A stretch of DNA of 62,023 bases from Sporosarcina psychrophila (GTDB lineage: Bacteria; Bacillota; Bacilli; Bacillales_A; Planococcaceae): the NCBI GenBank assembly GCA_020742515.1, contig DYWT01000318.1:1-62023 (forward strand). Direction: 5' to 3'. The notes beneath the pieces are model-generated. The model was given only the letters and a program-made list of their open reading frames with translations. It searched no databases and was not told the origin of the DNA. Made by a program: the position numbers and the translations under genes. How positions within the stretch are numbered: the first letter of the stretch is position 1; each line of letters opens with the position of its first letter. This document shows, one piece after another, positions 3,302 to 62,023 of the stretch.

Positions 3302-4128
3302 TTTTTTGCCTCCAATACTTCCAATGTATCTGTTAATACATTTTTCAAGACATATTCTCGGTATTTCGCGGATGCATAAATATCTTGGACGATTGTTGCC
3401 GGAAGCTTGGCAACCGCCTTATCGACTCGATCCAATTCAGTCAATGACGTATCGTTTAACACGCCTTCAACTACAGTTGAACGAAAAGGATGTTCGCAAA
3501 CTCCGCTAAATGCGACGCGAATGTGATTATCTTTCACTAATGCCGCGACAGATACGACCGGATAACCTACCTTTGACATTCTCGTTCTTTTTAGATTGAT
3601 AAAAGGTAAATCGAGATAGGACGTGTCAACATGTATTTGCACTAGAAAGGTCATTTTATCCATCTTTTTATTAAAAAGATCTTCCAAAGGGTGCATTTCT
3701 ACCTCATTCTTTACAGCAAGCATCACTTTTGCATCTGTTACCAAAAAAGGAAGCATGCCTTCTCGGTATATGAATTGGCTGTTCATGTTGCCGCCGATTG
3801 TAATTTTGTTTCGAGATGTGTGATCCGCAATTTGTTTAACTGTCTGGCCTAATAAAGGGAACAAATTGGACTCGGTGATTTTATTCAACGACACTGCTGC
3901 CCCGATGATCAATTTATCCCCCTGCAATTCTAAAACATTGCATTCAGGTATCCCTTTAATGTCAATAACCGCATCGGCACTTATTGTATTCACCCGAGCG
4001 AATGTAATAATTTCTGTTCCCCCAGAGTAGTACATGACCTTTTTCCCGAGTTTATGAACCCGGTTAAACGTCTCAACCGCTTCGTCTAGAGACGAGGGTT
4101 TATAATAGTCAAAGTCGAAGGAAATCAT
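3298..4128 (-). CDS. xanthine dehydrogenase-family FAD-binding subunit
   Basis: About 276 residues. YYSGGTEI near residue 40 and ITIGGNMNSQF near residue 108 are the two FAD-contact motifs of the CoxM/PucC family. It accepts electrons from the 2Fe-2S subunit and hands them to NAD or another acceptor. The start at 4128 is chosen because AAGGAGA precedes it by 7 nt and its ATG overlaps the large-subunit stop as ATGA; an upstream ATG would add nine residues made of the ribosome-binding-site region. It is the middle gene of a three-subunit operon. Length fits the family. Confidence 0.92.
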   Translation of the reverse strand: MISFDFDYYKPSSLDEAVETFNRVHKLGKKVMYYSGGTEIITFARVNTISADAVIDIKGIPECNVLELQGDKLIIGAAVSLNKITESNLFPLLGQTVKQIADHTSRNKITIGGNMNSQFIYREGMLPFLVTDAKVMLAVKNEVEMHPLEDLFNKKMDKMTFLVQIHVDTSYLDLPFINLKRTRMSKVGYPVVSVAALVKDNHIRVAFSGVCEHPFRSTVVEGVLNDTSLTELDRVDKAVAKLPATIVQDIYASAKYREYVLKNVLTDTLEVLEAKK

Positions 4129-6470
4129 TGTCCACTCTCCTTCCTCATTTTCCATATGAATTCTGGAATGAGTGGCAACTCGTTTAACTCAACTTGCGCT
4201 GCCACGGAAAGACTGTTTGCAAGTGCCGCCGCCATTCCAATCACCCCATACTCCCCAATTCCTCGCGCACCATACGGTCCATCAGCAGATGGGGTCTCAA
4301 TGAAATCAACGAGGTATTGTGCGGGCTGTTCTCCGAAACGCAAGAGTTGATAATTGCGTAAATCTGGGTTTTGCATAACACCTTGTTCATCGAAAACAAA
4401 CGTTTCAGTGCTTGCAAAACTAAGTCCCATGTACATGCCGCCTCTCATTTGCTGCAGTGCTGTAGTTGAGTTAATAATCGTGCCGCCATCAAGGACTGTC
4501 ACCGCCTTTAGTACTTTGTACGTACAATCACGCTGATTCCATTCAACTTCAACCGCTTGGACCCCAACTGACCACCAAGGACCTGGTTTCCCGAATCCCG
4601 TTTCTTTATCCATCGGCGTCAAATGCCGTTGGATATGTTTTCCGACGCCGACAATTTGCCCACCAATGGAATGTCCGCTCGGGTATGTGTATCCTAAAGC
4701 CAGGTCTTTGAATCCGACACCGTACGTTGGATCGGGCTTTAAATAGACACGTCCGTCGCCCACATCCAAATCTTCTTCTGCACATTGCAAAACAGCGGCT
4801 GCAGTTTTCTTCAATTGGGTAACTGCATTTTCGGCGGCAGCCAATACCGCCCGTCCCGCCAAAAAAGTAGTGCTACTCGCCACCGTCCGCCACTGATGAG
4901 GGTCATACTGTGTATTTACTTCCATCGTCACATGGATTTTGTCCATTCCAAGCTTCAGTTTCTCGGCGACAATTTGTGCGAGAATCGTTTTAGTACCTTG
5001 TCCCAGTTCAATCGCTGCGCAATTTAAATTCACACTCCCATCCGCCTCAAAAGTCAAAACGGCTCCAGCTTGGGCGTTCGTTGCGGTGGTTGATGTTTTC
5101 CAAAACATGCTGATCCCCTTTGATCGGATGGCTTTTTTGCTTACCTCAATCCGCTCGCCTTCATCCCACTTGATCAATTCTTTTGCCCGAATCATGCATT
5201 TCTCCACATCACCGATATTATTCGCAGTAAGTACAGTTTGAGTCGGTGTCGTGTTACCAGGTTTGATCCCGTTTAGTATTCGCAATTGGATGGGATCCAT
5301 ATTTAACTTTCGAGCCAATTGATCCATCGTTCTTTCTACTGCAAATGTCAATTCCGGATGGGCGTAGCCTCTGAACGAGGTTGCAAAAGTATGATTCGTA
5401 TACATGCAGTAGGAGTCACACCAGACATTAGGGATATGATACGGACCTGTACAATCAATTGCTGCCGCCCTCGTTATGCCCGCCGCCTGGTCCGTGTAAG
5501 CTCCAGAATCAATCAGAAATGTATACTGTCCCGCAAGTAATTTACCGTCCTTGTCGACACCTAGTTTAATGGTGGCGTCAAATCCGATATGACAGGGAGC
5601 CGTTCTCATATCCTCCTCGCGCTCCAATTGTAGCTTCACCATTTTTCCACCAACGGCTTTCGATGCCAAATAAGCAAGGGGTTCCAACTGTACAGTCCCC
5701 TTCCCTCCGAAGGCACCGCCGACTAGAGGAATATGAACAATTACATTGCCGACTTCAATATTGAAAAACTGATTCAAGACCTTTTTAATCGTGTATGGCG
5801 ATTGGGAACATGAATGGACAATGACTTTACCTTCTGGATTAATTTCAACCCGTGTACTGCGCGTTTCCAGTGCGGCATGATCTGAAAGATTAAAATTGTA
5901 TGTAGCCGATACCGTTTCGGCGCAGTTTTTCCATGCTGAACCTAAATCCCCTTTACGGATTTTAATATGACTGCCGATATTTGTCCCTGGAACTGGATAG
6001 ACATCACTGATAATTTTCATATACTGCCCTAAATCAGGATGGATTAAGGGAGCATCTGTTTCAAATGCCTGTTTTGCGGAATTCACAATAGGTAAAGGCT
6101 CATACTTAATCTTCACCTTACTGGCAGCTAGTTTTGCTTGATGTTCATGATCTGCGACAATAATGGCTACCGGTTCACCATAATACCGAACTTTTTCAAA
6201 TGCTAATGGCGGTCGATCAGCAAGTATTGGACCGATATGGAAAGGAAACATGTCCCCTGTTACAATTGCTCGTACCCCCGGAACTTTCCATGCCTCCTTT
6301 GTATCCAGTGCTGTGATAGTGGCATGGGCATTTGTGCTTGTCACGAGTTTCGCATGCAGCATGCCTGGTACCGCATAATCCCCAATATATCGAACTTTTC
6401 CTGTCACCTTTTCAACTGCATCAATTCTATGTTCAGACTTACCAACAGTAGTCCGTATTGTGCTATCCAT
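4125..6470 (-). CDS. xanthine dehydrogenase-family molybdopterin-binding subunit
   Basis: Catalytic subunit of 781 residues. Visible are the aldehyde oxidase/xanthine dehydrogenase a/b hammerhead (KVTGKVRYIGDY), the glycine-rich GGAFGGKG, the substrate-pocket FRGYAHPE, the QGTKT molybdopterin region, and GIGEYG, where Glu is the catalytic base of the family. It should hydroxylate a purine or related N-heterocycle, as PucD does in B. subtilis. AGGAGG sits 7 nt before ATG 6470; a longer frame adds 11 residues without support. It is followed by coupled FAD and FeS subunits and preceded by the YIEGIA/capping pair, with XdhC- and MobA-like helpers divergent. It appears intact. Confidence 0.92.
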   Translation of the reverse strand: MDSTIRTTVGKSEHRIDAVEKVTGKVRYIGDYAVPGMLHAKLVTSTNAHATITALDTKEAWKVPGVRAIVTGDMFPFHIGPILADRPPLAFEKVRYYGEPVAIIVADHEHQAKLAASKVKIKYEPLPIVNSAKQAFETDAPLIHPDLGQYMKIISDVYPVPGTNIGSHIKIRKGDLGSAWKNCAETVSATYNFNLSDHAALETRSTRVEINPEGKVIVHSCSQSPYTIKKVLNQFFNIEVGNVIVHIPLVGGAFGGKGTVQLEPLAYLASKAVGGKMVKLQLEREEDMRTAPCHIGFDATIKLGVDKDGKLLAGQYTFLIDSGAYTDQAAGITRAAAIDCTGPYHIPNVWCDSYCMYTNHTFATSFRGYAHPELTFAVERTMDQLARKLNMDPIQLRILNGIKPGNTTPTQTVLTANNIGDVEKCMIRAKELIKWDEGERIEVSKKAIRSKGISMFWKTSTTATNAQAGAVLTFEADGSVNLNCAAIELGQGTKTILAQIVAEKLKLGMDKIHVTMEVNTQYDPHQWRTVASSTTFLAGRAVLAAAENAVTQLKKTAAAVLQCAEEDLDVGDGRVYLKPDPTYGVGFKDLALGYTYPSGHSIGGQIVGVGKHIQRHLTPMDKETGFGKPGPWWSVGVQAVEVEWNQRDCTYKVLKAVTVLDGGTIINSTTALQQMRGGMYMGLSFASTETFVFDEQGVMQNPDLRNYQLLRFGEQPAQYLVDFIETPSADGPYGARGIGEYGVIGMAAALANSLSVAAQVELNELPLIPEFIWKMRKESGQ

Positions 6471-6489
6471 GATTAATCCTCCTGACTTT

Positions 6490-6681
6490 TTAGCGTGCGA
6501 CAATAATCATTGTGTCTTCGTCTATTTCATGTGCAGAAGCATCCATGATTTTCTCCAAAGTCATGCTAATTTTTTGCAAATGCTTTTTATTATCCGCGAT
6601 GAAAACAGTTGCACCTCCAGCCTGGATGGTTTCCGGTTTCATTGTAATGACGGCAACAATCTCTGAATGCTGATTTTCCAA
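6490..6681 (-). CDS. capping complex subunit for YIEGIA
   Basis: A protein of about 63 residues with the pattern ...GGATVFIADNKKHL...LEKIMDASAHEIDEDTMIIV, which I recognise as the small partner annotated as capping complex subunit for YIEGIA proteins. It sits 91 nt downstream of the YIEGIA gene and 19 nt before the dehydrogenase large subunit, all on the same strand. I prefer TTG 6681 (GGGAG 9 nt upstream); a TTG ten codons earlier is possible. Function is unknown; in spore formers the pair is usually autonomous, so linkage to a molybdenum hydroxylase is notable. Confidence 0.7.
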   Translation of the reverse strand: MENQHSEIVAVITMKPETIQAGGATVFIADNKKHLQKISMTLEKIMDASAHEIDEDTMIIVAR

Positions 6682-6772
6682 TCCTTTCAACTCCCTATAT
6701 ATAGAATTCAAAAAAAGTTACGCTTACAATTTTGAAGTTTTTTAATTTCAGCAAAAAATCTATGTGGATGAC

Positions 6773-7648
6773 TCATTTACCTTTATCTGCTTCTTTTGGC
6801 AATCGAATCGCACTATCCAATACTGGTACTTTCTCTATTACTGCCTTAATTTGTTGAAAATCTTTTTCTCGCGGCAAAAAGAAAAGTGCAATCCGGCCAT
6901 CTGCCATATCCCTTTTGGTAAGTGGCAGTAGTGCAGGTTCACCTGAATCCAGATAAGCGCCTAATACAGTCGCTATATGATGTAACATCGCTTGCCGCTG
7001 GCCAAGGAAGGACAATGTGATAATACTGTTTTCATTCTTAGGGATGACGATTGCGCCAACTGCCCGTTCTGTGATGACACGTCTCGTATCCTCAAGCCCG
7101 ACATTTTTAATAAGAATATCGCCAACAAAGAGCGTTGGACCTTCAAAGCGAATCTCCGCTTCCGTAACATCAGCAATTGCCGATAGTGATTTTCCCGTCA
7201 TATTGTATTTCACAATAATAAGCATGACAACCCCACCAATAATTCCGAACCAAATAGAAAATACCGAGCATAGCGTCGTCACAAGACCAGTAAACATCAC
7301 TAAATAATTACGGCTTTCAAACGCCTGCGCCATTCCTTCAATGAATGGTGTACCACGTTTTACAAGTTCACTCGTATCGATTTTTTCAAGTGACTCCCTC
7401 TCCATTTTCCGAACTTCTCGAAACTGTGTTGCAGCAAGTCCAAGAAACGTCACAGCGGTCCAATCGGATTCAAGTACTGCAGGAATCGCAACCGCTCCGA
7501 TGAAGGCCGCTATAAATCCGAAAGATAGATGAATAATCCGTCCTTGCGGATATGTAGGATACTGCCGAAAATCGGTACGCAATAGAACTGTCCGTGCTAA
7601 AAAGCCAAAAATGATTCCTGTAATAACTGGAAGTAAATACTGATCCAT
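6773..7648 (-). CDS. YIEGIA family membrane protein
   Basis: A 291-residue protein with hydrophobic helices at about residues 3-20, 40-58, 63-75 and 118-148, and a soluble C-terminal half. The family name motif appears as FIEGMA at residues 102-107. The C-terminal half carries repeated hydrophobic strands around LFVGDILIKNVG. GGGGAGG lies 6-8 nt before ATG 7648. It is the first gene of the minus-strand run leading into the dehydrogenase subunits. The family is conserved in endospore formers but has no assigned biochemistry that I can state with confidence. Confidence 0.8.
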   Translation of the reverse strand: MDQYLLPVITGIIFGFLARTVLLRTDFRQYPTYPQGRIIHLSFGFIAAFIGAVAIPAVLESDWTAVTFLGLAATQFREVRKMERESLEKIDTSELVKRGTPFIEGMAQAFESRNYLVMFTGLVTTLCSVFSIWFGIIGGVVMLIIVKYNMTGKSLSAIADVTEAEIRFEGPTLFVGDILIKNVGLEDTRRVITERAVGAIVIPKNENSIITLSFLGQRQAMLHHIATVLGAYLDSGEPALLPLTKRDMADGRIALFFLPREKDFQQIKAVIEKVPVLDSAIRLPKEADKGK

Positions 7649-7676
7649 GACTTATCCTCCCCTTATGAAAAGTAGT

Positions 7677-7689
7677 TTAACCAAAGTGG
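7677..7689. promoter_or_regulatory. PucR-box-like site between divergent operons
   Basis: TTAACCAAAG matches the core of the PucR operator known from B. subtilis purine catabolism (reverse complement of WWWCNTTGGTTAA). It lies in the 120-bp spacer between the YIEGIA/dehydrogenase operon and the XdhC/MobA-like operon, where a shared regulator would bind. The flank deviates from consensus and no pucR gene is in the window, so this is tentative. Confidence 0.3.
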
Positions 7690-7768
7690 TGTTTAATTAG
7701 TATGAACAATCCATGAATCGCATAGAAGTTCGGCACAATGGCTACAGTCAGTAGTAAGGGGTGGAGAT

Positions 7769-8767
7769 ATGGAGACAATTCAGCAACTGATTGAAAAAAT
7801 ATTGAGTGATGGCCGGCCTGCTGTACTTGCAATGATTGTTAATGTAGAAGGATCAGCTTATAGAAAAGAAGGAGCCTGGATGTTGATACGGGAAAATGAT
7901 TCACAAATCGGTGTGATTAGCGGAGGCTGTCTTGAAAGTGATTTACAAAGTCGTGCGCGGAAACTCTTCAATACAGGAAAAGCTGAAATTCATCGCTATG
8001 ATTTGAGTGCGGAAGACGACCTTGGGTGGGGACGCGGTGCTGGATGCAATGGAGTTGTTACCGTCATGATTCGGGACATTAATTCTAAGTTCCGACGAGC
8101 CATCACATTTCTAAATGAACAGCTGTTAGCAAAAAATCCTGTTACATTCATCCAATCGATGGATAATTTTGATATGTATTCATTTAGAAGCAGAAATGGC
8201 GAACAATACGGTGACTTGGACTATGTAAGCCAAGATGAATTTTCCATCACCACCCCATTTCAACACATTGCAGGGCAGAAAGCCGTTGGTGACGATACGG
8301 TTTATCATCAATTGTTGTGGCCTATGCCGAATCTTTACATATTTGGGGCAGGAGTAGATGCCAGACCGCTTGCCCAGCTTGCCGCGCGCGTAGGATACGC
8401 TGTCCATATGCTCGACTGGCGCGAATCGCTTTGTAATGAGGTTCATTTCCCTAAAGCGAAGTCTTTTCAAACAGGCAACGTGGAGAAATTGATTGGCAAC
8501 ATAACGTTTAGTTCATTGGATTCAGTCGTCGTTATGACGCATGACTTTCAGAAAGACTTAATGATCATGCAACAATTGCGTCCTAGTCGATTATTGTATT
8601 TCGGTATTTTAGGGTCAAAAAAAAGAACCCTTCGCTTACTTGGCGGAGAAATTCCCGATTGGGTTCGTTCGCCCGTGGGACTTTCCATTGGTGCGGATGG
8701 ACCTGAAGAAATCGCTGTCAGCATTATAGCCGAACTGATTGCAGTGAAACGGAGGAAAAAAATATGA
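7769..8767 (+). CDS. XdhC/CoxI family molybdenum hydroxylase maturation protein (PucA-like)
   Basis: A 332-residue XdhC-family protein. The N-terminal XdhC domain shows GSAYRKEGAWMLI and GVISGGCLESDL. The C-terminal Rossmann part carries YIFGAGVDARPLAQLAARVGY, ending with the conserved SIGADGPEEIAVSI stretch. In this family the protein binds molybdenum cofactor and helps its sulfuration and insertion into xanthine dehydrogenase. It begins at ATG 7769 behind AAGGGGTGGAG and its stop overlaps the next start as ATGA. It is divergent from the structural subunit genes, as expected for a dedicated assembly factor. Confidence 0.9.
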   Translation: METIQQLIEKILSDGRPAVLAMIVNVEGSAYRKEGAWMLIRENDSQIGVISGGCLESDLQSRARKLFNTGKAEIHRYDLSAEDDLGWGRGAGCNGVVTVMIRDINSKFRRAITFLNEQLLAKNPVTFIQSMDNFDMYSFRSRNGEQYGDLDYVSQDEFSITTPFQHIAGQKAVGDDTVYHQLLWPMPNLYIFGAGVDARPLAQLAARVGYAVHMLDWRESLCNEVHFPKAKSFQTGNVEKLIGNITFSSLDSVVVMTHDFQKDLMIMQQLRPSRLLYFGILGSKKRTLRLLGGEIPDWVRSPVGLSIGADGPEEIAVSIIAELIAVKRRKKI

Positions 8768-29111: not shown

Positions 29112-29340
29112 TTATAAAAAAATACCCGTCCCAAATAAAGGGACGAGTATGATTACCCGTGATTCCACCCAAATTTCTAACACCATCCAACAATGGTGTT
29201 AACTCATGGCGCTGTAACGTAGCATTAACGGTATTAGTTACTTCATTTCACTAATACAGCTCAAAAGTGGTAAATTATTTTCTGCGTTAGGAAGTTCTCA
29301 GCTTTACTTCCCTCTCTGGAAACCATCAAAATAATTCATG
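29112..29340 (-). promoter_or_regulatory. T-box riboswitch, promoter-distal copy next to thrS
   Basis: The T-box core GGGTGGAATCACGGG is at 29170-29156 on the minus strand. A terminator follows (ATACCCGTCCC / GGGACGAGTAT at 29122-29150, then TTTTTTTATA). Stem I upstream includes an AGAGAGGGAAGT start and a specifier-loop candidate ACC (Thr) at 29271-29269 followed by A. Uncharged tRNA-Thr would stabilise the antiterminator and let thrS be transcribed. Confidence 0.88.
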
Positions 29341-29374
29341 TCTTTGTCATAGCTGTTATCGTTATTCAGTTAAT

Positions 29375-29605
29375 ATCTATACAAATAAACACACCCATCC
29401 CTAGTAAAGGGACGAGTGTGTTTTCTCGTGATTCCACCCAAATTTCTAACACCATCCAACAATGGAGTTAGCTCATGGTGCTGTAACGTAGCATTAACGG
29501 CCATTAGATACTTATTTTCTCTAATGCAGCTCAAAAGTGGTAAATTGCTTTTCTGCGTTGGGAAGATTTCAGCTATACTTCCCTCTCTGTAAACCATAAA
29601 AACAA
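29375..29605 (-). promoter_or_regulatory. T-box riboswitch, promoter-proximal copy
   Basis: Second, diverged copy of the same leader. T-box core GGGTGGAATCACGAG is at 29439-29425, the terminator stem with arms ACACACCCATCCC and GGGACGAGTGTGT is at 29390-29421 with a weaker T tract, and the candidate ACC specifier is at 29541-29539. The stretch around the core and specifier is almost identical to the downstream copy, so it arose by tandem duplication. Both must be read through to express thrS. Confidence 0.87.
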
Positions 29606-29751
29606 TTCATGTCTCTATCATCGCTATTATAAAATATAGTTAGAATTCACCAAAATCGAATTAGTTAATATCCTACAACAAACAAAATAAATTATCAAGC
29701 TTTTCTTTATCATAGTGCTGACAATCCAAGCTATCCTACTCCAACTGGCAC

Positions 29752-36462: not shown

Positions 36463-36489
36463 TCAAGGTAATTGTATAAGTATAAAGTT

Positions 36490-36613
36490 TTCTAGGGTTC
36501 CGCAACGAACGTGTTGGTCCGTGACCGAGAGAAAGCTCACAGCTTTGCTGTGTCACGGAAGGATAAAAGCCTGGGAGAAACTGTTTAACAGTTTACTCTT
36601 AGGCTTTTTTTGT
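36490..36613 (+). promoter_or_regulatory. guanidine-I (ykkC) riboswitch
   Basis: Shows the conserved ykkC blocks in order: CTAGGGTTCCG, GGTCCGTGACCGAGAGA, CACGGAAGGATAAAAGCC and GGGAGA. The last block overlaps a terminator (AAAAGCCTGGGAG... / ...CTCTTAGGCTTTTTTT). Guanidinium binding would block the terminator and turn on the SMR genes 34 nt downstream, an arrangement known from ykkCD-type operons. Confidence 0.93.
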
Positions 36614-53300: not shown

Positions 53301-53420
53301 TGAAAAGCGACCTCCATACAACTGTGGATGATTCGCTTTCTGGATTAATTTACCCTTAACACAGACGATTGGACAAATAAAGGATCGTCAACAGACGATC
53401 TCCTGTTGTTATAATGATTG
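53301..53420. repeat. terminator-like hairpin plus short hairpin repeat
   Basis: AAAAGCGACCTCCATACA..TGTGGATGATTCGCTTT hairpin (53301-53340), followed by GGATCGTCAACAGACGATCT (53379-53402). Same order of elements as near 46.0 and 51.8 kb. Confidence 0.55.
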
Positions 53421-53424
53421 GTAA

Positions 53425-53850
53425 GCCTTTGATGTTATCGTCAGCTTTTCCCCTACTTCACACTGTACGTGCGACTTTCACCGCATACGGCGTTCCAACT
53501 AATCCAACCCGATTCAATCATCAACACTTCTGGAATTGTAATATCCTCAGTGTCCCAATTCTTTCGTTTCAATAAGTCGGTGCCTTCCGTGGAAGGTGAA
53601 CCTCTATCAGTCTTACAAGAACCTTATTAATCGTTGAAGAACCGTCTTGCATGGTTGAATTAATCTTTCATTGGTCTAGTGGCTATCCCTCCACGTTATC
53701 AGCTTACAACGTTGAATTACATCTATTATGGCACAAACTTAGGTGCTTCCTATAAGCCTGTTAGCCTTGCATGTGCCTGTAACACAAGATGGATTTTTAT
53801 ATAGTTCATTCTTACTCATCCACAGCTAACCCTACATTCTAAACTCCCTA
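53425..53850 (-). mobile_element. ORF-less group II intron remnant
   Basis: On the minus strand, AACGCCGTATGCGG-TGAA-AGTCGCACGTACAGTGT (53493-53459) is a group II intron domain V, with the CGC triad and GNRA-like loop. Domain VI-like sequence GTAGGGGAAAAGC..GGCTTACC follows, and upstream AACGTTGTAAGCTGATAACG and TGGAGGGATAGCCACTAGAC are domain I-type blocks. No reverse transcriptase/maturase frame is present, and one domain V pair is C-A instead of C-G. It is therefore a deleted, probably inactive copy, or one needing a maturase in trans. Ends are approximate. Confidence 0.65.
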
Positions 53851-55219: not shown

Positions 55220-55778
55220 TTACTATATCATACTCTTACTTATTTACCGCAACTGTATGTTTCGCCGCGAGATCTAATATATCCCCTGGGATGATGGTTC
55301 GATCGCTAATAGCACTCTCCAAAATGGCTGTGCTCCGGCCGCGAGAGCTGTATCGACAATTATCTCGCGTCGAGCTTAGCTATTGAGCATTAACTCGACC
55401 TCTGCTTTTAAAAATCGACTTGAAAACTTCAATTCTTCACTCTCCACTGACAAAGGTACTGGAGTGTTCGTAGCGACTGCTCTACGTTTCAAACCAAATA
55501 CCTCGGCAATCTTGTTAACATGGCCACTTGCAACTTTATCAAGAAATGTAGCATCTTTTAACAGCTTGGCGTCAATCGGATTATCGATGAATCCTGACTC
55601 CGTAAGCAATGCCGGCATTTTAGACTCACGTAAACCCGCTAAATCACCACGCCTTTTTCCGCGATTGCGCCAATTAGTCGCTTTTACAACTGCAGCATTG
55701 ATGGCATTTTGCACTTTAGTGGTCATAGCGCTCACGCAACCGTTATAAATTCAATCCTCGTAGCCGTATCCGGACGAT
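55220..55778 (-). pseudogene. truncated phage N-acetylmuramoyl-L-alanine amidase
   Basis: The longest open part (55376-55735) carries the C-terminal half of an amidase_3 domain: VQNAINAAVVKATNWRNRGK, then KMPALLTESGFIDNPIDAKLL with catalytic Glu, then KIAEVFGL. Upstream a stop interrupts SGYGYED before IYNG; downstream, frames beyond the stop still read AILESAISDRTIIPGDILDL AAKH. The 5' half of the gene is missing and the remaining part abuts a portal gene fragment, so a deletion joined two phage genes. Endolysin-type wall hydrolase, not functional now. Confidence 0.75.
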
Positions 55779-56033: not shown

Positions 56034-57332
56034 TTAGAATTTGAGCCCAAGCTTCTGTCTGTTGTCCATAACGTAATACTGGAACATGTCGCAAGTATGA
56101 TCATCAATCTCAACTACCTTTGGATTAGCCGTTCTAAGCGAATCAGCATCCATCTGATACTTACGATGTTCTTGAATACCTGGTTATTAGATGTCTCCAA
56201 ATAATAAAAACGACCTTGCGCTAACAGGTCGTAAACGAAATCAATCATATCTAGTTTCTTTCCTTTAGCGACCGGGTGTAGTCTTATACTGCGGTCTATT
56301 AAATAGCTGATTCCGTAAAGCGCCTTCCGCAGAGTCGATTGTCGTCACGTCAATTGGCTTTTTATACTTCTTTCTGACTCCGTCCAACCATTCCTTGTAT
56401 TCGTCCGACAACTCACTAGGTGCCTTTTTATTGACCTTTCCAGCAGGTGAATAATAGTACGTAGCCAGCAGGATTACTTTTTTCTTAGCTGTTAATGCAA
56501 ATGCACCATGAGTAGTTGCCAACTGCTGATGCCCTGTGTCTGTTGCAGTATCTATCAAGATAATCGGGTCATTGCTAGGCAGCTCCAGTAATGGATGGAA
56601 GTGATTCATATTGTAGATGTTATCCCCCATACCAATTACATCGCCGCCATACATCCAATCATGATAATCTGGATCATTCTTTTGATACTGCTTAATTTTC
56701 TCAACCATTTGCTTTGAAAGGAATCCTTTTTCATCATCCAAGTAAGTGGAATGGTGCATGAAATAGTTTTCATCACCTATTTTGCTATCTTTCCATTCAT
56801 TTACCCACGCATACGGATTTCTGGGAGGATTGTAAGAGTAGTAGACCATAACCCGTCTATCTCCTAGGTCTTGACGAATGAATGTATCTTCAACAATGTC
56901 AATGTCTTCTATGCCGCTGAACTCAGCCAACTCTTCAAACCAAAGAGCCATGTAATGCCCTTTAGCAATGTTCATGGATTTCAGCTTTAAAGGATCGTCG
57001 ACACCGTGGAAATAGAACCCTGTTTCCGTCCGCTTATGCTTAATAACAAGCGGTGACTTCCCAAAAATGAATTCACCCTGGACACCCAACATGTAGATAG
57101 CCCACTTGATTTGTTCATATACGGAACCGGATAAGTACTTGCCAACCTTCCGTAAACAAACAACATTTCCCTCTTCATCCTCTAGGAAGTCGATAACAAG
57201 CTTCAAGCTAATAACAGATGATTTCATACTGGAACGTCCACCACTCAATATACTGTGCGGCTTTTCGTTCAACCAGAAGGAATAGAAGTTGCGATTCATA
57301 AGGTCCATGAGGTTAATCGTTTCAGTCGTCAT
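56034..57332 (-). pseudogene. phage terminase large subunit, frameshifted
   Basis: The open part (57332 to 56265, 355 codons) contains the ATPase: SGGRSSMKSSVISLKLV is the Walker A region (G-G-R-x-S-x-K-S), GHYMALWFEELAEFSG Walker B, and PIILIDTATDTGHQQLATTH the nuclease-domain start. It then shifts frame at TTPGR; VAKGKKLDMIDFVYDLLAQG and, after a second shift, YQMDADSLRTANPKVVEIDD continue to the natural stop at 56034. The full protein would have been about 430 residues, like PBSX-type XtmB. Its start overlaps the original end of the small subunit gene. Confidence 0.85.
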
Positions 57333-58191
57333 GCTGCATCGCCCGCTTCATTGCTTCTTTGTCGTTTACGATAACAACACGACTGCCGCCGACATCTTCA
57401 TTCTTAGTTTTTGCTTTCGCTTTGGCTATATCAGCCTTCAACTTCTCTTCCTGCAAGCGTTACTTATCATTTTCAGATAGAACATCGAAGTATCTGGATA
57501 GCATGTCGAGAGCCTTCATCTTGTCGAGTAGTTTGACAGACACACCATCTTTGCCTTGTTTGACTTCTGAAATAAGAGAACCATCCACTATGTCATCATT
57601 CTTAAAATCAACTTGGCTCATCTTGTATGTGATCGGCTTGAAGTTCGCATCCAGCATTACCTTGCCTGTTTCCGGATGCCGCTGTTCCATCTCAACATTC
57701 CCGAACTCCACGAAATCAGTTATATCTGCAAAGGCAATCTGAATGTATTTGTTCAGCACATCCATAGCATCTATGAAGATACCCTGTTGCATTTCTCCTT
57801 TAAGTCTTCTGACTTCCTCAGCAACCTTAGGAATTCTTATCAGCCTACTGCCTTCTACATGAGCACTGTTCCTGCTGTAACTAGCCTTGATTGCTGCCAT
57901 CGTCTGATTAAAGCTCTTAATGTAGTAAATACAAAAAAGCCTCTGCTTATCGGTCAAATCATCCGACAAAACAACAGGCTCTATATCATCCTTTTTCGGT
58001 TGCATCCTTTTAGTAATGGTTGCATCCTTTTTCGTTTTAGTTGCATCTTTATCGGATGGACCTCTTACCCAAGCTTCACGACTTTTCCTACTCTTCAGCG
58101 TACCAAGCTTCACATCATGTTTTTCAGCTAATGCAGCAATCGTTATTGTCGTTGTTTCCCATTCATGTTTGATTACGTCCCAGTTAACCAA
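57322..58191 (-). pseudogene. phage terminase small subunit with premature stop
   Basis: The open part (58191 to 57460) codes 243 residues: HTH start WDVIKHEWETTTITIAALAE, then LTDKQRLFCIYYIKSFNQTMAAIKASYSRNSAHVEGSRLI, the TerS/XtmA signature. After a TAA at 57460 the same frame continues RLQEEKLKADIAKAKAKTKN and on to TGA at 57322, overlapping the large-subunit ATG, the normal phage arrangement. One nonsense change thus removed about 45 C-terminal residues. The N-terminal DNA-binding part may still be made. Confidence 0.85.
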
Positions 58192-58300: not shown

Positions 58301-58301
58301 G

Positions 58302-58374
58302 GCGTTATAGCTCAGTTGGATAGAGCGCCCTTCTCATAAAGGGGTTGTCGGGGGTTCGAGTCCCTCTAGCGAAT
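58302..58374 (+). tRNA. tRNA-Met (CAT)-like, probably a pseudogene
   Basis: 73-nt cloverleaf: TA at 8-9, D stem GCTC/GAGC, anticodon stem CCCTT/AGGGG with loop CTCATAA (anticodon CAT), T arm GGGGG-TTCGAGT-CCCTC. The acceptor stem is faulty: GGCGTTA against TAGCGAA leaves the first two pairs G-A, and no CCA follows. It lies on the strand opposite the phage genes, with its own promoter and terminator. Probably a decayed phage-carried or attachment-site tRNA. Confidence 0.6.
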
Positions 58375-59530: not shown

Positions 59531-59947
59531 TCACTTCTCCGACGTATCCGACATTTGCGACATCTTCCGTATGATCGTATCTTTAATTCTCCCGATATGC
59601 CGATCCGATAGAGCCATATGATTCCCAATCCATCGCAAACTTTTTCCTTCAAGCAACCAATGCAATACCTCAATCTCCCGGTCAACCGTAATCAAATGAA
59701 TATTATCCTGCACCATCTTTATTTTTTGCTCGTAATCACTAATCTTTTTCCACCGCTTTTCCCGTCTTGAAAACTCTTGATAAATAGGATCACTATGACC
59801 CCCAGCCGCTTTTGGCATAGCTGCCTCTAATCCGTACTGAGCTGTAAAGTTACCACCAACCTCATTCAATCCCTCGCGCATGATCCTCACACTATTTATC
59901 ATCCAGTGATAATCCTTTAACAACTGCTCAATCTGTTTCTCCGTCAT
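59531..59947 (-). CDS. phage transcriptional regulator, RinA/sigma-70 region 4-like
   Basis: 138 residues: helical N-terminus (EQLLKDYHWMINSVRIMREG), a central coiled-coil-like region (RREKRWKKISDYEQKIKMVQDNIHLI), and a C-terminal HTH (EIEVLHWLLEGKSLRWIGNH, then MALSDRHIGRIKDTIIRKM) like sigma-70 region 4. It fits RinA/ArpU-type regulators that switch on phage late or packaging genes, and it lies upstream of the terminase genes as expected. GGGGGG precedes the ATG. Appears intact even though its targets are decayed. Confidence 0.7.
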   Translation of the reverse strand: MTEKQIEQLLKDYHWMINSVRIMREGLNEVGGNFTAQYGLEAAMPKAAGGHSDPIYQEFSRREKRWKKISDYEQKIKMVQDNIHLITVDREIEVLHWLLEGKSLRWIGNHMALSDRHIGRIKDTIIRKMSQMSDTSEK

Positions 59948-60143: not shown

Positions 60144-60164
60144 TTCCCTCACTCCTTTTTTGAA

Positions 60165-60225
60165 ATAAAAGAAGAGGACAACAAATGATACAGCGCAATG
60201 CTGTAATCAATCGTTGTCCTCTGGT
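60165..60225 (-). terminator. complete terminator downstream of the defence-like genes
   Basis: AGAGGACAAC / GTTGTCCTCT with an inner ACAGC..GCTGT hairpin, minus-strand tail TCTTTTATTTC. It overlaps the left 61-bp direct repeat. Confidence 0.75.
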
Positions 60226-60240
60226 TGGCCAGGGGGGACT
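60180..60240. repeat. 61-bp direct repeat, left copy
   Basis: Identical to 60783-60843 except for one base. Ends ..GGTTGGCCAGGGGGGACT. Lies directly after the two-helix membrane protein gene. Confidence 0.9.
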
Positions 60241-60252
60241 ATTTTTTTATAA

Positions 60253-60765
60253 TCATTCCAATTGCTCAATTTTACTTTTTACAATCTTAATCATATATTC
60301 ATAAATATATATTTGTTCTCTAATATCCTTATCGTCACCAAAGAAAGGAGTAAGGGTTTTCCAAATTACAAAACCAAATGTTCCTACTAAAAGTAGAAAA
60401 AATAACATGCAAATAATTAAATAAATTATTTTTTCTAGCGTAAAACTAAAATTATCGATTTCTTCTAAAGCTTTGTACATAATTGGTATTCCTTGAGTTG
60501 TAAAAAAATTAGTAAGAACAACAACAACAATACCAATACCGATCCCCCTATATCCAAAGTAATTTAACTCTTTTTGAAGAGACTCTAAATGAAAAATCAC
60601 TTCTTTTAAAAGCTTCTTTTCACATTTTATTTCTTTAGATAATGAATTTATTATTATATCCAATTCTTCGTTTGCCTTCGCTCTTAGAAGTAATTTTCGT
60701 TCATGTTTTTTTGTGATTTTATTAAATTCTCTTTTTCTAATTTTATTTACTTTTTTTATGTTCAT
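60253..60765 (-). CDS. two-helix coiled-coil membrane protein in the defence-like locus
   Basis: 170 residues: very basic head (MNIKKVNKIRKREFNKITKKHERKLL), a coiled coil (about 25-70, NEELDIIINSLSKEIKCEKK), helix 1 (YRGIGIGIVVVVLTNFFTT), a polar extracytoplasmic loop, helix 2 (IIYLIICMLFFLLLVGTFGFVIW) and a helical tail. AGGAG precedes ATG 60765. No family recognised. It lies between two 61-bp direct repeats downstream of the ATPase/DUF4435 pair, suggesting later insertion. A membrane effector is possible but is only inference. Confidence 0.6.
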   Translation of the reverse strand: MNIKKVNKIRKREFNKITKKHERKLLLRAKANEELDIIINSLSKEIKCEKKLLKEVIFHLESLQKELNYFGYRGIGIGIVVVVLTNFFTTQGIPIMYKALEEIDNFSFTLEKIIYLIICMLFFLLLVGTFGFVIWKTLTPFFGDDKDIREQIYIYEYMIKIVKSKIEQLE

Positions 60766-60782: not shown

Positions 60783-60843
60783 AACAAATGATACAGCGCA
60801 ATGATGTAATCAATCGTTGTCCTCTGGTTGGCCAGGGGGGACT
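60783..60843. repeat. 61-bp direct repeat, right copy
   Basis: Begins at the DUF4435 gene stop codon. Here the outer terminator arm is replaced by the ribosome binding site of the next gene. Confidence 0.9.
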
Positions 60844-61673
60844 TATAAAACTCTTTCCTTTAAGAATTCAAAGTTTTTTAAATCGATACTTTGAACAAAA
60901 CTTGTAAAAAGCGCTTTATCTGTCATGCCCTTGCCGCCGCCAGTCGCTTTAGCTAAGTTTTTACAATAGTTAGTTAGACTTGCCCATAAAAATTTCCCTG
61001 AAACTAATTGGTTCTTGATATCTACTCCAGTTAATACCTCTTCTACTAATTGGAATTCTTCATCAAAATTATATCCTTTTCTAGTTACTTCACTCTTTTT
61101 TTCATCGTATAATTTTCCGACTTTTTCGCCACTTAATTTATGTGTATTATTTATTAAATAAACATACTCTTTGTCAGTTATACAACTTGTTAGGTTATAT
61201 TTTCTAGATACTAATGCAATTTTAAAAACCTTTTCAAAGTCTACAATTACCTCTGATAGCCATTTATCATATTCACTACCTGTTTCTTGACTTATATAAA
61301 AACCAATCGTTTCTTCAAATGACTTTTTCTCTATTAAATAATTTTCAAAACAATATCTTTCTAATTCAATAACGTTGTCTAGAGTCCTTGGATTAATATA
61401 ATTCTCCAAATATGGATCCATATCTCTATCTATTAGGAAATAACTGTTACTATCAGTATTTATTCGAGATTTCTCTAAAACTTTGGTTTTATTCCCCAAC
61501 GGAAAAACTCTTCTAATTTGAAACCTTTCTTCAAATAATTTATTTAATATTATTTTAAAAGCGTGCTGGGTTTCAACTTTCTCATCTTCTATATAAAATT
61601 GTCTTTCTTGGTATGATGTATAAAATAGACTAATATTACTCTTCCCTTTTTTACTATATTGAATTTCATTCAT
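60843..61673 (-). CDS. DUF4435 domain protein, AriB-like (PARIS defence)
   Basis: 276 residues, starting MNEIQYSKKGKSNISLFYTS. The TOPRIM-like core of DUF4435 is visible: QFYIEDE at 25-31 (acidic first motif), YFLIDRDMD at 78-86 (D-x-D metal motif) and ELERYCFENYLI at 103-114 (the E-x-Y-x-x-E-N-Y-L family mark). In PARIS systems the DUF4435 protein AriB is the nuclease released by AriA when a phage anti-restriction protein is sensed; it cleaves tRNA. The ATG overlaps the upstream ATPase stop (ATGA), supporting a two-gene module. Subtype unresolved. Confidence 0.75.
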   Translation of the reverse strand: MNEIQYSKKGKSNISLFYTSYQERQFYIEDEKVETQHAFKIILNKLFEERFQIRRVFPLGNKTKVLEKSRINTDSNSYFLIDRDMDPYLENYINPRTLDNVIELERYCFENYLIEKKSFEETIGFYISQETGSEYDKWLSEVIVDFEKVFKIALVSRKYNLTSCITDKEYVYLINNTHKLSGEKVGKLYDEKKSEVTRKGYNFDEEFQLVEEVLTGVDIKNQLVSGKFLWASLTNYCKNLAKATGGGKGMTDKALFTSFVQSIDLKNFEFLKERVL

Positions 61674-62023
61674 AAACTTGATACTCCTCTGACATCTATG
61701 CAATGATTTGCATAGTCTCCTACTATTTCTGGAGAGTGAGTAGCCAATATTAACTGTTGTCCTCCTAAGTTTTTTAACATAATATCTAATAACTGACTTT
61801 GCCATTCAATATGCAAAGATAATTCCGGTTCATCTATAATTAGTATCCTAGATTTACCACTTTGGGAAAATGATTTATTAATGTTGAGAGTTGCTACCAA
61901 CATAATAAAAAGTTGTTTTTCACCAGAAGATAGTTTTAGAACATTATTCTTGTTATTTTTACCTAGACTTTCAAATTCGATTTCTTCAAAATAAGATGAT
62001 AAATCCGTTAAAAGTATTTTTTT
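61670..62023 (-). CDS. AAA/ABC-type ATPase, AriA-like, partial
   Basis: Only the C-terminal 117 codons lie in the window; the gene continues past its right edge. Visible are the ABC signature LSSGEKQLFI, Walker B RILIIDEPELSLHIEWQ with catalytic Glu, and the switch LILATHSPEIVGDYANHCID. These belong to the AAA15/OLD-like group that pairs with DUF4435 proteins; in PARIS this is AriA. The stop overlaps the DUF4435 start. Walker A and the sensor region are outside, so the family call rests on this segment plus the partner. Confidence 0.75.
   Translation of the reverse strand, partial: KKILLTDLSSYFEEIEFESLGKNNKNNVLKLSSGEKQLFIMLVATLNINKSFSQSGKSRILIIDEPELSLHIEWQSQLLDIMLKNLGGQQLILATHSPEIVGDYANHCIDVRGVSSL

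Follow-up and report, generated by a model that had tools for sequence, protein, structure and literature searches.

The stretch of DNA analyzed here, hereafter the window, spans 62,023 nucleotides and is the entire contig C318 of a 4.33-Mb, 320-contig genome of Sporosarcina psychrophila. We consider it likely that two overlapping genes at the end of this contig, an AriA-type ATPase gene of which the 3' end is visible and a complete DUF4435 gene of AriB type, make up a predicted abortive-infection system of the PARIS type, and that they are repeat-bounded cargo of a decayed prophage; in relatives, the site has xtrA as its border on one side and a regulator and terminase genes on the other. The reading draws on the order of the genes, the profiles and folds that their products match, the conservation of acidic residues, and the anatomy of the repeat and cassettes; complex formation, trigger, tRNA target and activity of the pair in the window would follow by analogy with known systems. 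Among PARIS systems, this Gram-positive pair is new and divergent, and its close relatives are few. In our view, the site matters more than the pair itself.

An AriA-type ATPase and an AriB-type DUF4435 protein

The original prediction proposed a PARIS-like ATPase/DUF4435 pair from short motifs, and our analysis supports it. LSSGEKQ, DEPELSLH and ATHSPEI are all present in the 117-amino acid ATPase frame, which stays open to the contig end, and IEDE, DRDMD and FENYLI all occur in the adjacent DUF4435 frame (Table 1). PADLOC profiles identify the two products as AriA (2.2e-20) and AriB (1.5e-10), far beyond chance. By the PARIS-defining thresholds of PMC9122126, the ATPase should reach 32 bits with AAA_15 or 27 bits with AAA_21 and lie next to a DUF4435 gene of at least 27 bits. 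Both visible parts of the pair exceed these values: the ATPase fragment scores 55.2 bits with AAA_21 and 46.8 bits with AAA_15, and the DUF4435 protein scores 37.9 bits with the Pfam profile (cut-off 27) when its start is placed at the ATG at 61673. This is the likely start judging from the sequence, the listed open reading frame (ORF) 60843-61805 beginning too early; hmmscan run on that over-long frame did not list DUF4435.

Profiles of the fragment alone would not decide the ATPase family, as PtuA almost equals AriA in PADLOC (4.8e-20). We therefore turn to solved structures and to complete relatives. Among all solved PDB chains, the best match of the fragment is AriA (8ux9_B, 2.6e-15), and the next family, retron Ec83, follows at 2.1e-6. 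AriA also comes first among PDB chains for the complete partner ATPases of two relatives, one on a Lactococcus plasmid (1.3e-24, residues 11-446) and one in Planomicrobium soli (7e-17, best stretch 373-443). A closer kinship to RecF or ABC families, which could have overturned the assignment, thus did not emerge. For the DUF4435 protein, a fold search with the predicted structure reveals the TOPRIM-type fold of AriB, with 12-13% identity in the structural alignment; it is this search that settles the kinship, sequence searches of the PDB having missed AriB. Residues E29, D82 and D84 are invariant in eight aligned DUF4435 sequences and would correspond to AriB E26 by position, not by residue alignment; E26 is a catalytic acidic residue of AriB for which PMC12409363 describes an experimental test.

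Close relatives are scarce. A word-based search of 5.8 billion proteins returned the DUF4435 protein itself and two more, and no relative was found in viral contigs and phage records. Genome contigs yielded none with the single sequence and eight loci with a six-row alignment. Two Lactococcus plasmids (L041 and L042) carry two-gene pairs of the PARIS type, whose DUF4435 proteins are about 30% identical to that of the window; almost the entire L041 ATPase aligns with AriA.

In Escherichia coli PARIS, AriA hexamers hold AriB, Ocr or Arn triggers its release, and AriB dimers cut tRNA-Lys (PMC11455837). By homology, an AriA hexamer would keep AriB inactive in Sporosarcina until a phage protein, the known triggers being anti-restriction proteins such as Ocr, would make AriA free it; freed AriB would then dimerise and its TOPRIM site would cut a host tRNA, halting growth before the phage could spread. 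We dismissed a phage tRNA acting as a counter-measure to PARIS, the sole tRNA in the window being a tRNA-Met and not a tRNA-Lys.

A folded repeat closes the cargo genes

A direct repeat of 61 nucleotides, 98% identical between 60783-60843 and 60180-60240, flanks the gene that follows the pair. It is absent from the original prediction, whose claim of a phage-derived hotspot is hereby confirmed and made precise: the hotspot is a repeat-bounded cargo site. The repeat, 61-78 nucleotides long, begins at the stop codon of the DUF4435 gene. A second, terminal copy lies behind the following gene and forms a predicted terminator. The internal copy lacks the closing half of the terminator hairpin and the T-rich tail, so that transcription of the PARIS genes probably reads through into the membrane-protein gene.

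Of the 76 columns in an alignment of 42 terminal copies, 21 are invariant. Two base pairs of a small 5' hairpin outside the terminator show compensatory changes, one in 10 sequences and the other in 7. In a covariation test, cells with a change on both sides were more numerous than in shuffles (24 versus 6.4), whereas the number of pairs changed on both sides was not above shuffles (3 versus 2.8). The terminal copy of L139 was left out of the column-conservation, homology-break and covariation analyses, and that of L110, identical to another, out of the first and last of these.

We found the repeat in 59 of 261 genomes of the order; as the search scored only about three candidate places per genome, copy numbers are lower bounds. 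In a sample of 398 genomes drawn from the class it occurs in four, all of one family and including the genome of the window. Seven IMG/VR contigs contain it; no copy was found in INPHARED (phage) or PLSDB (plasmid), and Rfam has no family for it.

Borders and architecture of the cargo site

The 44 loci under study comprise 40 regions from the repeat search in the 261 genomes, two IMG/VR contigs, contig C54 and the window itself. xtrA, identified by PF17356 matches and assigned to loci by clustering, is present in 34 of them. Downstream of the cargo, many loci show a small ORF, then a gene for a regulator or sigma factor, and then the terminase. For 841 of 882 pairs (43 loci), homology between loci ends near the start of the repeat; toward xtrA, 232 of 322 pairs (32 loci) lose it directly after the stop codon of that gene. 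An ORF ends 3-18 nucleotides before the repeat in 53 of 67 copies, a count that leaves out two copies under 44 bits, against 2.1 expected. At the other border, the 3' end of xtrA is typically a purine-rich stretch followed by TTTTGA. The TTG within this motif opens the cargo frame in 21 of 32 xtrA genes, and an ATG just after the stop does so in one more. With constant flanks that bring start and stop, the cargo in most loci is a coding sequence placed start-to-stop between xtrA and the repeat. Similar borders exist outside this family: in the isolated Aeribacillus phage AP45 (L189, 5001-6524), xtrA is followed by one hypothetical gene and a sigma factor.

Two to four repeat copies stand in a row in 22 of the 42 genomic loci, a set partly chosen for such arrays. 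A tblastn search detects a piece of xtrA after 11 of 25 internal repeats and after one of 44 terminal ones; none was detected in this way after the other 14 internal copies, that of the window included, although inspection by eye suggests additional pieces beyond those counted. These pieces indicate that the stacked unit consists of an xtrA end, cargo and the repeat. In L140, an intact xtrA follows an internal repeat. The same locus (6747-7903, oriented coordinates) has one xtrA frame that continues into a 276-amino acid protein ending at the internal repeat, the intact xtrA being its second. A promoter scan was no richer than shuffles in the Planomicrobium locus (39 versus 43.1); in the window it gave 26 versus 15.0 (standard deviation 3.6) on both strands, and we infer no promoter from it.

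Cargo genes and a second PARIS pair

Sixty cargo ORFs that end at or near repeats fall into 38 clusters. A hydrophobic, membrane-like segment is found in 40 of these 60, versus 60 of 393 downstream phage ORFs, and two further loci have relatives of the window's membrane protein as cargo, next to different neighbors. Of 59 cargo ORFs scanned with PADLOC, at least six have matches (RmrA, PDC-S28, AbiLii, PD-T7-3, AriB, and AbiP or AbiC), and most remain without a name; one cargo ORF has an RloB domain.

In Planomicrobium soli (L093), xtrA (2416-2613) is followed by six gene units, each ended by a divergent repeat. The repeats start at 3364, 4012, 6823, 7433, 8778 and 9783, with E-values of 1.2e-6, 2.2e-7, 5.3e-5, 0.044, 4.1e-4 and 0.12, respectively. 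After them come a helix-turn-helix (HTH) frame, a terminase small subunit (PHROG 51, 6.1e-41) and a frame that by eye is a terminase large subunit. The third unit is a complete AriA (458 amino acids) and AriB (289 amino acids; AriB profile 1.4e-21) pair at 4550-6792, whose DUF4435 protein is 27% identical to that of the window. In all, five DUF4435 genes occur in the 261 genomes, and two, in the window and in Planomicrobium, lie beside the repeat. A further genome, G186, which was assigned by software to the same species, matches the window from the regulator to the repeat (86%), has a different gene before the repeat, and contains no DUF4435 gene.

How the cargo may be exchanged

Related bacteria thus hold different genes between the same two short flanks, the likely means by which such defenses are swapped and stacked. 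The flanks are constant and the center variable; units stand in tandem, some with decaying pieces of xtrA. The xtrA 3' end would supply the Shine-Dalgarno sequence and often the TTG start codon, and the repeat would supply the stop codon and an intrinsic terminator. The coding sequence in between would be replaced or stacked, most simply, we infer, through recombination between related prophages via xtrA and the repeat. With at least four repeat-bearing sites in one chromosome, G186 would offer partners for such recombination.

More generally, the evidence leaves us evenly balanced on whether prophages of this family carry a landing pad akin to a natural expression cassette, formed by the xtrA 3' end (ribosome site and start) and a 66-nucleotide folded repeat (stop and terminator). 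Defense coding sequences, including PARIS, RmrA-, AbiLii- and PDC-S28-like genes and many unnamed membrane proteins, would be exchanged or stacked there start-to-stop, as in an integron-like array without a dedicated integrase. PHROG scans of representatives of 27 neighbor families (each in at least five of the 44 loci) named no integrase. The names obtained concern replication, packaging and regulation; one family of 76-amino acid proteins (16 of the 44 loci) aligns with a portion of PHROG 3356 'transposase', and another, in six loci, is a Holliday junction resolvase.

Alternative explanations

The pair could belong to another defense group that combines an ATPase with a TOPRIM protein, such as the PtuA-like Septu and retron systems or the OLD/Gabija-like ones, and merely resemble PARIS. 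The near tie of PtuA and AriA profiles on the fragment speaks for this, as does the fold that AriA, PtuA and OLD/Gabija-type ATPases have in common. We nevertheless find it most improbable, given that AriA is ahead by about nine orders of magnitude against solved chains, that the partner is a DUF4435 protein with the AriB fold, and that no HNH (PtuB), UvrD-like (GajB) or reverse transcriptase profile appears among the adjoining genes scanned, on the visible (downstream) side only. It is also unlikely that the pair is a relic that no longer works, its chromosomal ATPase gene being truncated as also seems true of the terminase. Decay of the adjoining prophage and the incomplete ATPase on the contig would agree with a relic; however, the break coincides with the contig end and not with a stop codon, the ATPase and DUF4435 frames are both open with intact motifs, and an identical DUF4435 protein is recorded on three contigs, the longest of 92.5 kb.

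As to the site, the repeat may be no special cassette element but simply a phage terminator, tandem copies reflecting accretion of morons by chance recombination. We take this as a serious possibility, somewhat short of an even chance: the fold of the repeat is that of an intrinsic terminator, complete with T tract, the neighbor families scanned include no consistently linked integrase, and junctions after internal copies vary in position. Accretion alone sits less well with two regularities seen in many unrelated families of cargo, a near-fixed spacing from stop to repeat and starts that lie at the xtrA stop, or with the invariant columns and the compensated 5' hairpin outside the terminator. 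At the other extreme, a true integron-like system, with a site-specific recombinase that would recognize the folded repeat, seems unlikely to us. Each unit has one gene and one hairpin, head to tail, with the stop codon at the hairpin, and several internal copies diverge after ...CATTTGTT(GTCC); yet internal units carry variable lengths of xtrA, and the 76-amino acid and resolvase families are the nearest to an integrase among the neighbors.

Several observations count against our reading of the pair or of its site. AriB was not reached by the DUF4435 protein among PDB sequences, with one sequence and two profiles, nor by the DUF4435 protein of the relative L094. Most of the ATPase, its N-terminal part with Walker A included, lies beyond the contig end, and the gene could therefore be truncated; the partner ATPases of L093-L096 and L098 do have Walker A. 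Searching the other contigs of the genome with an AriA profile (27 matches) uncovered no convincing N-terminal part, and the final 200 bases of the window matched nothing else in the genome significantly. The best N-terminal match, C240:173-322, was rejected as the missing part, being a short, OLD-like frame from a small contig. The corresponding locus (L028, G000:C240, 113-349, minus strand) holds a 78-amino acid frame that looks by eye like the N-terminus of an OLD-type ATPase. As xtrA lies outside the window, the left border is drawn from relatives. The loci were picked for the repeat, and partly for tandem copies, so that our counts are silent on the number of cargo sites without it, and pairs of loci do not amount to independent observations. 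To the right of the repeat start, too, many pairs share only short homology (median end +89), and a start codon is lacking at the stop of 10 of the 32 xtrA genes. Two of the six Planomicrobium repeats, those with E-values of 0.044 and 0.12, are weak alone and rest on their position. Finally, the other three of the five DUF4435 genes have neither repeat nor xtrA within about 1.5 kb on each side.

The decayed prophage and other features of the window

The prophage next to the pair, described as dead in the original prediction, indeed looks decayed, with a 355-amino acid terminase large subunit frame, an amidase fragment, and a 62-amino acid frame after the large subunit that by eye resembles the start of the 497-amino acid portal protein of L113. 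On the strand opposite the prophage genes, a short way upstream of the terminase small subunit, lies a tRNA-Met gene (CAT; 58301-58374, plus strand). Elsewhere in the window, Rfam models detect two tandem T-box leaders (29136-29630, minus strand; RF00230, 109 and 105 bits), a Guanidine-I riboswitch (36481-36579, plus strand; RF00442, 72.5 bits) and a Group II intron domain (53411-53495, minus strand; RF00029, 44.7 bits).

Table 1. Genes and repeat copies of the cargo site and adjoining prophage, in window coordinates
Feature	Position	Strand	Remarks
AriA-type ATPase gene, 3' part (117 codons)	61670..62023	-	ABC signature, Walker B, H-loop; contig end cuts gene
AriB-type DUF4435 gene, 276 amino acids, complete	60843..61673	-	start overlaps ATPase stop (ATGA)
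Internal repeat copy	60783..60843	-	starts within DUF4435 stop codon, ends ...CATTTGTT; 98% identical to terminal copy over 61 nucleotides
Second cargo gene, 170-amino acid membrane protein	60253..60765	-	two hydrophobic segments; same cluster as L118_1 and L132_2L
Terminal repeat copy	60163..60240	-	strong hairpin, then T-rich tail; minimum free energy -30.4 kcal/mol, z -8.6
Putative phage regulator (HTH), right border of cargo site	59531..59947	-	GerE-like 7.5e-5, just under Pfam cut-off; PHROG 1058 (unknown function) 4.8e-36
Terminase small subunit, decayed prophage	57460..58191	-	PF03592 5.5e-42
Terminase large subunit, 355-amino acid frame, probably truncated	56265..57332	-	PF04466 3.3e-46; cluster median 426 amino acids in related loci
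Amidase fragment, decayed prophage end	55376..55735	-	PF01520 4.7e-13, profile positions 102-173 of 174 only

Comparison with known systems

The repeat pinpoints the sites of exchangeable cargo in temperate phages of this family, which allows untested candidate defense genes to be read by position. A standing question, how phages take up defense genes precisely without breaking their own operons, is thereby made testable. We found no prior description of the site in the open-licence PMC papers searched. PARIS is reportedly named among the systems of two hotspots that were added in the study of the Bacillus prophage defense hotspot. Like the latter (Rousset et al. 2022), the present site is prophage-borne and variable and holds defense genes; unlike it, sites of the window type lie between xtrA and the regulator and terminase genes, and are bounded by a conserved repeat.

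The PARIS system of the E. coli P4 satellite, as presented in PMC9122126 and in structures 8ux9 and 8v46, likewise has an AAA_15/AAA_21 ATPase gene followed by a DUF4435 gene. An AriA-like sequence, the AriB fold and a phage-derived hotspot are common to both. The pair in the window differs in its Gram-positive host, in phage type and site, in a DUF4435 protein that is as distant from AriB as stated above, and in the co-oriented membrane-protein gene that follows with no complete terminator in between.

Integron cassettes (attC) are similar in their head-to-tail single-gene units with a hairpin repeat close to the stop codon. Here, however, no integrase was found among the neighbor families scanned, the hairpin ends do not fit the attC core, and several units have pieces of xtrA at their 5' ends. 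Phage morons are also extra genes with their own terminator between phage genes, whereas the cargo described here has one common terminator sequence and one upstream leader, which often gives the start codon, and stacks in tandem.
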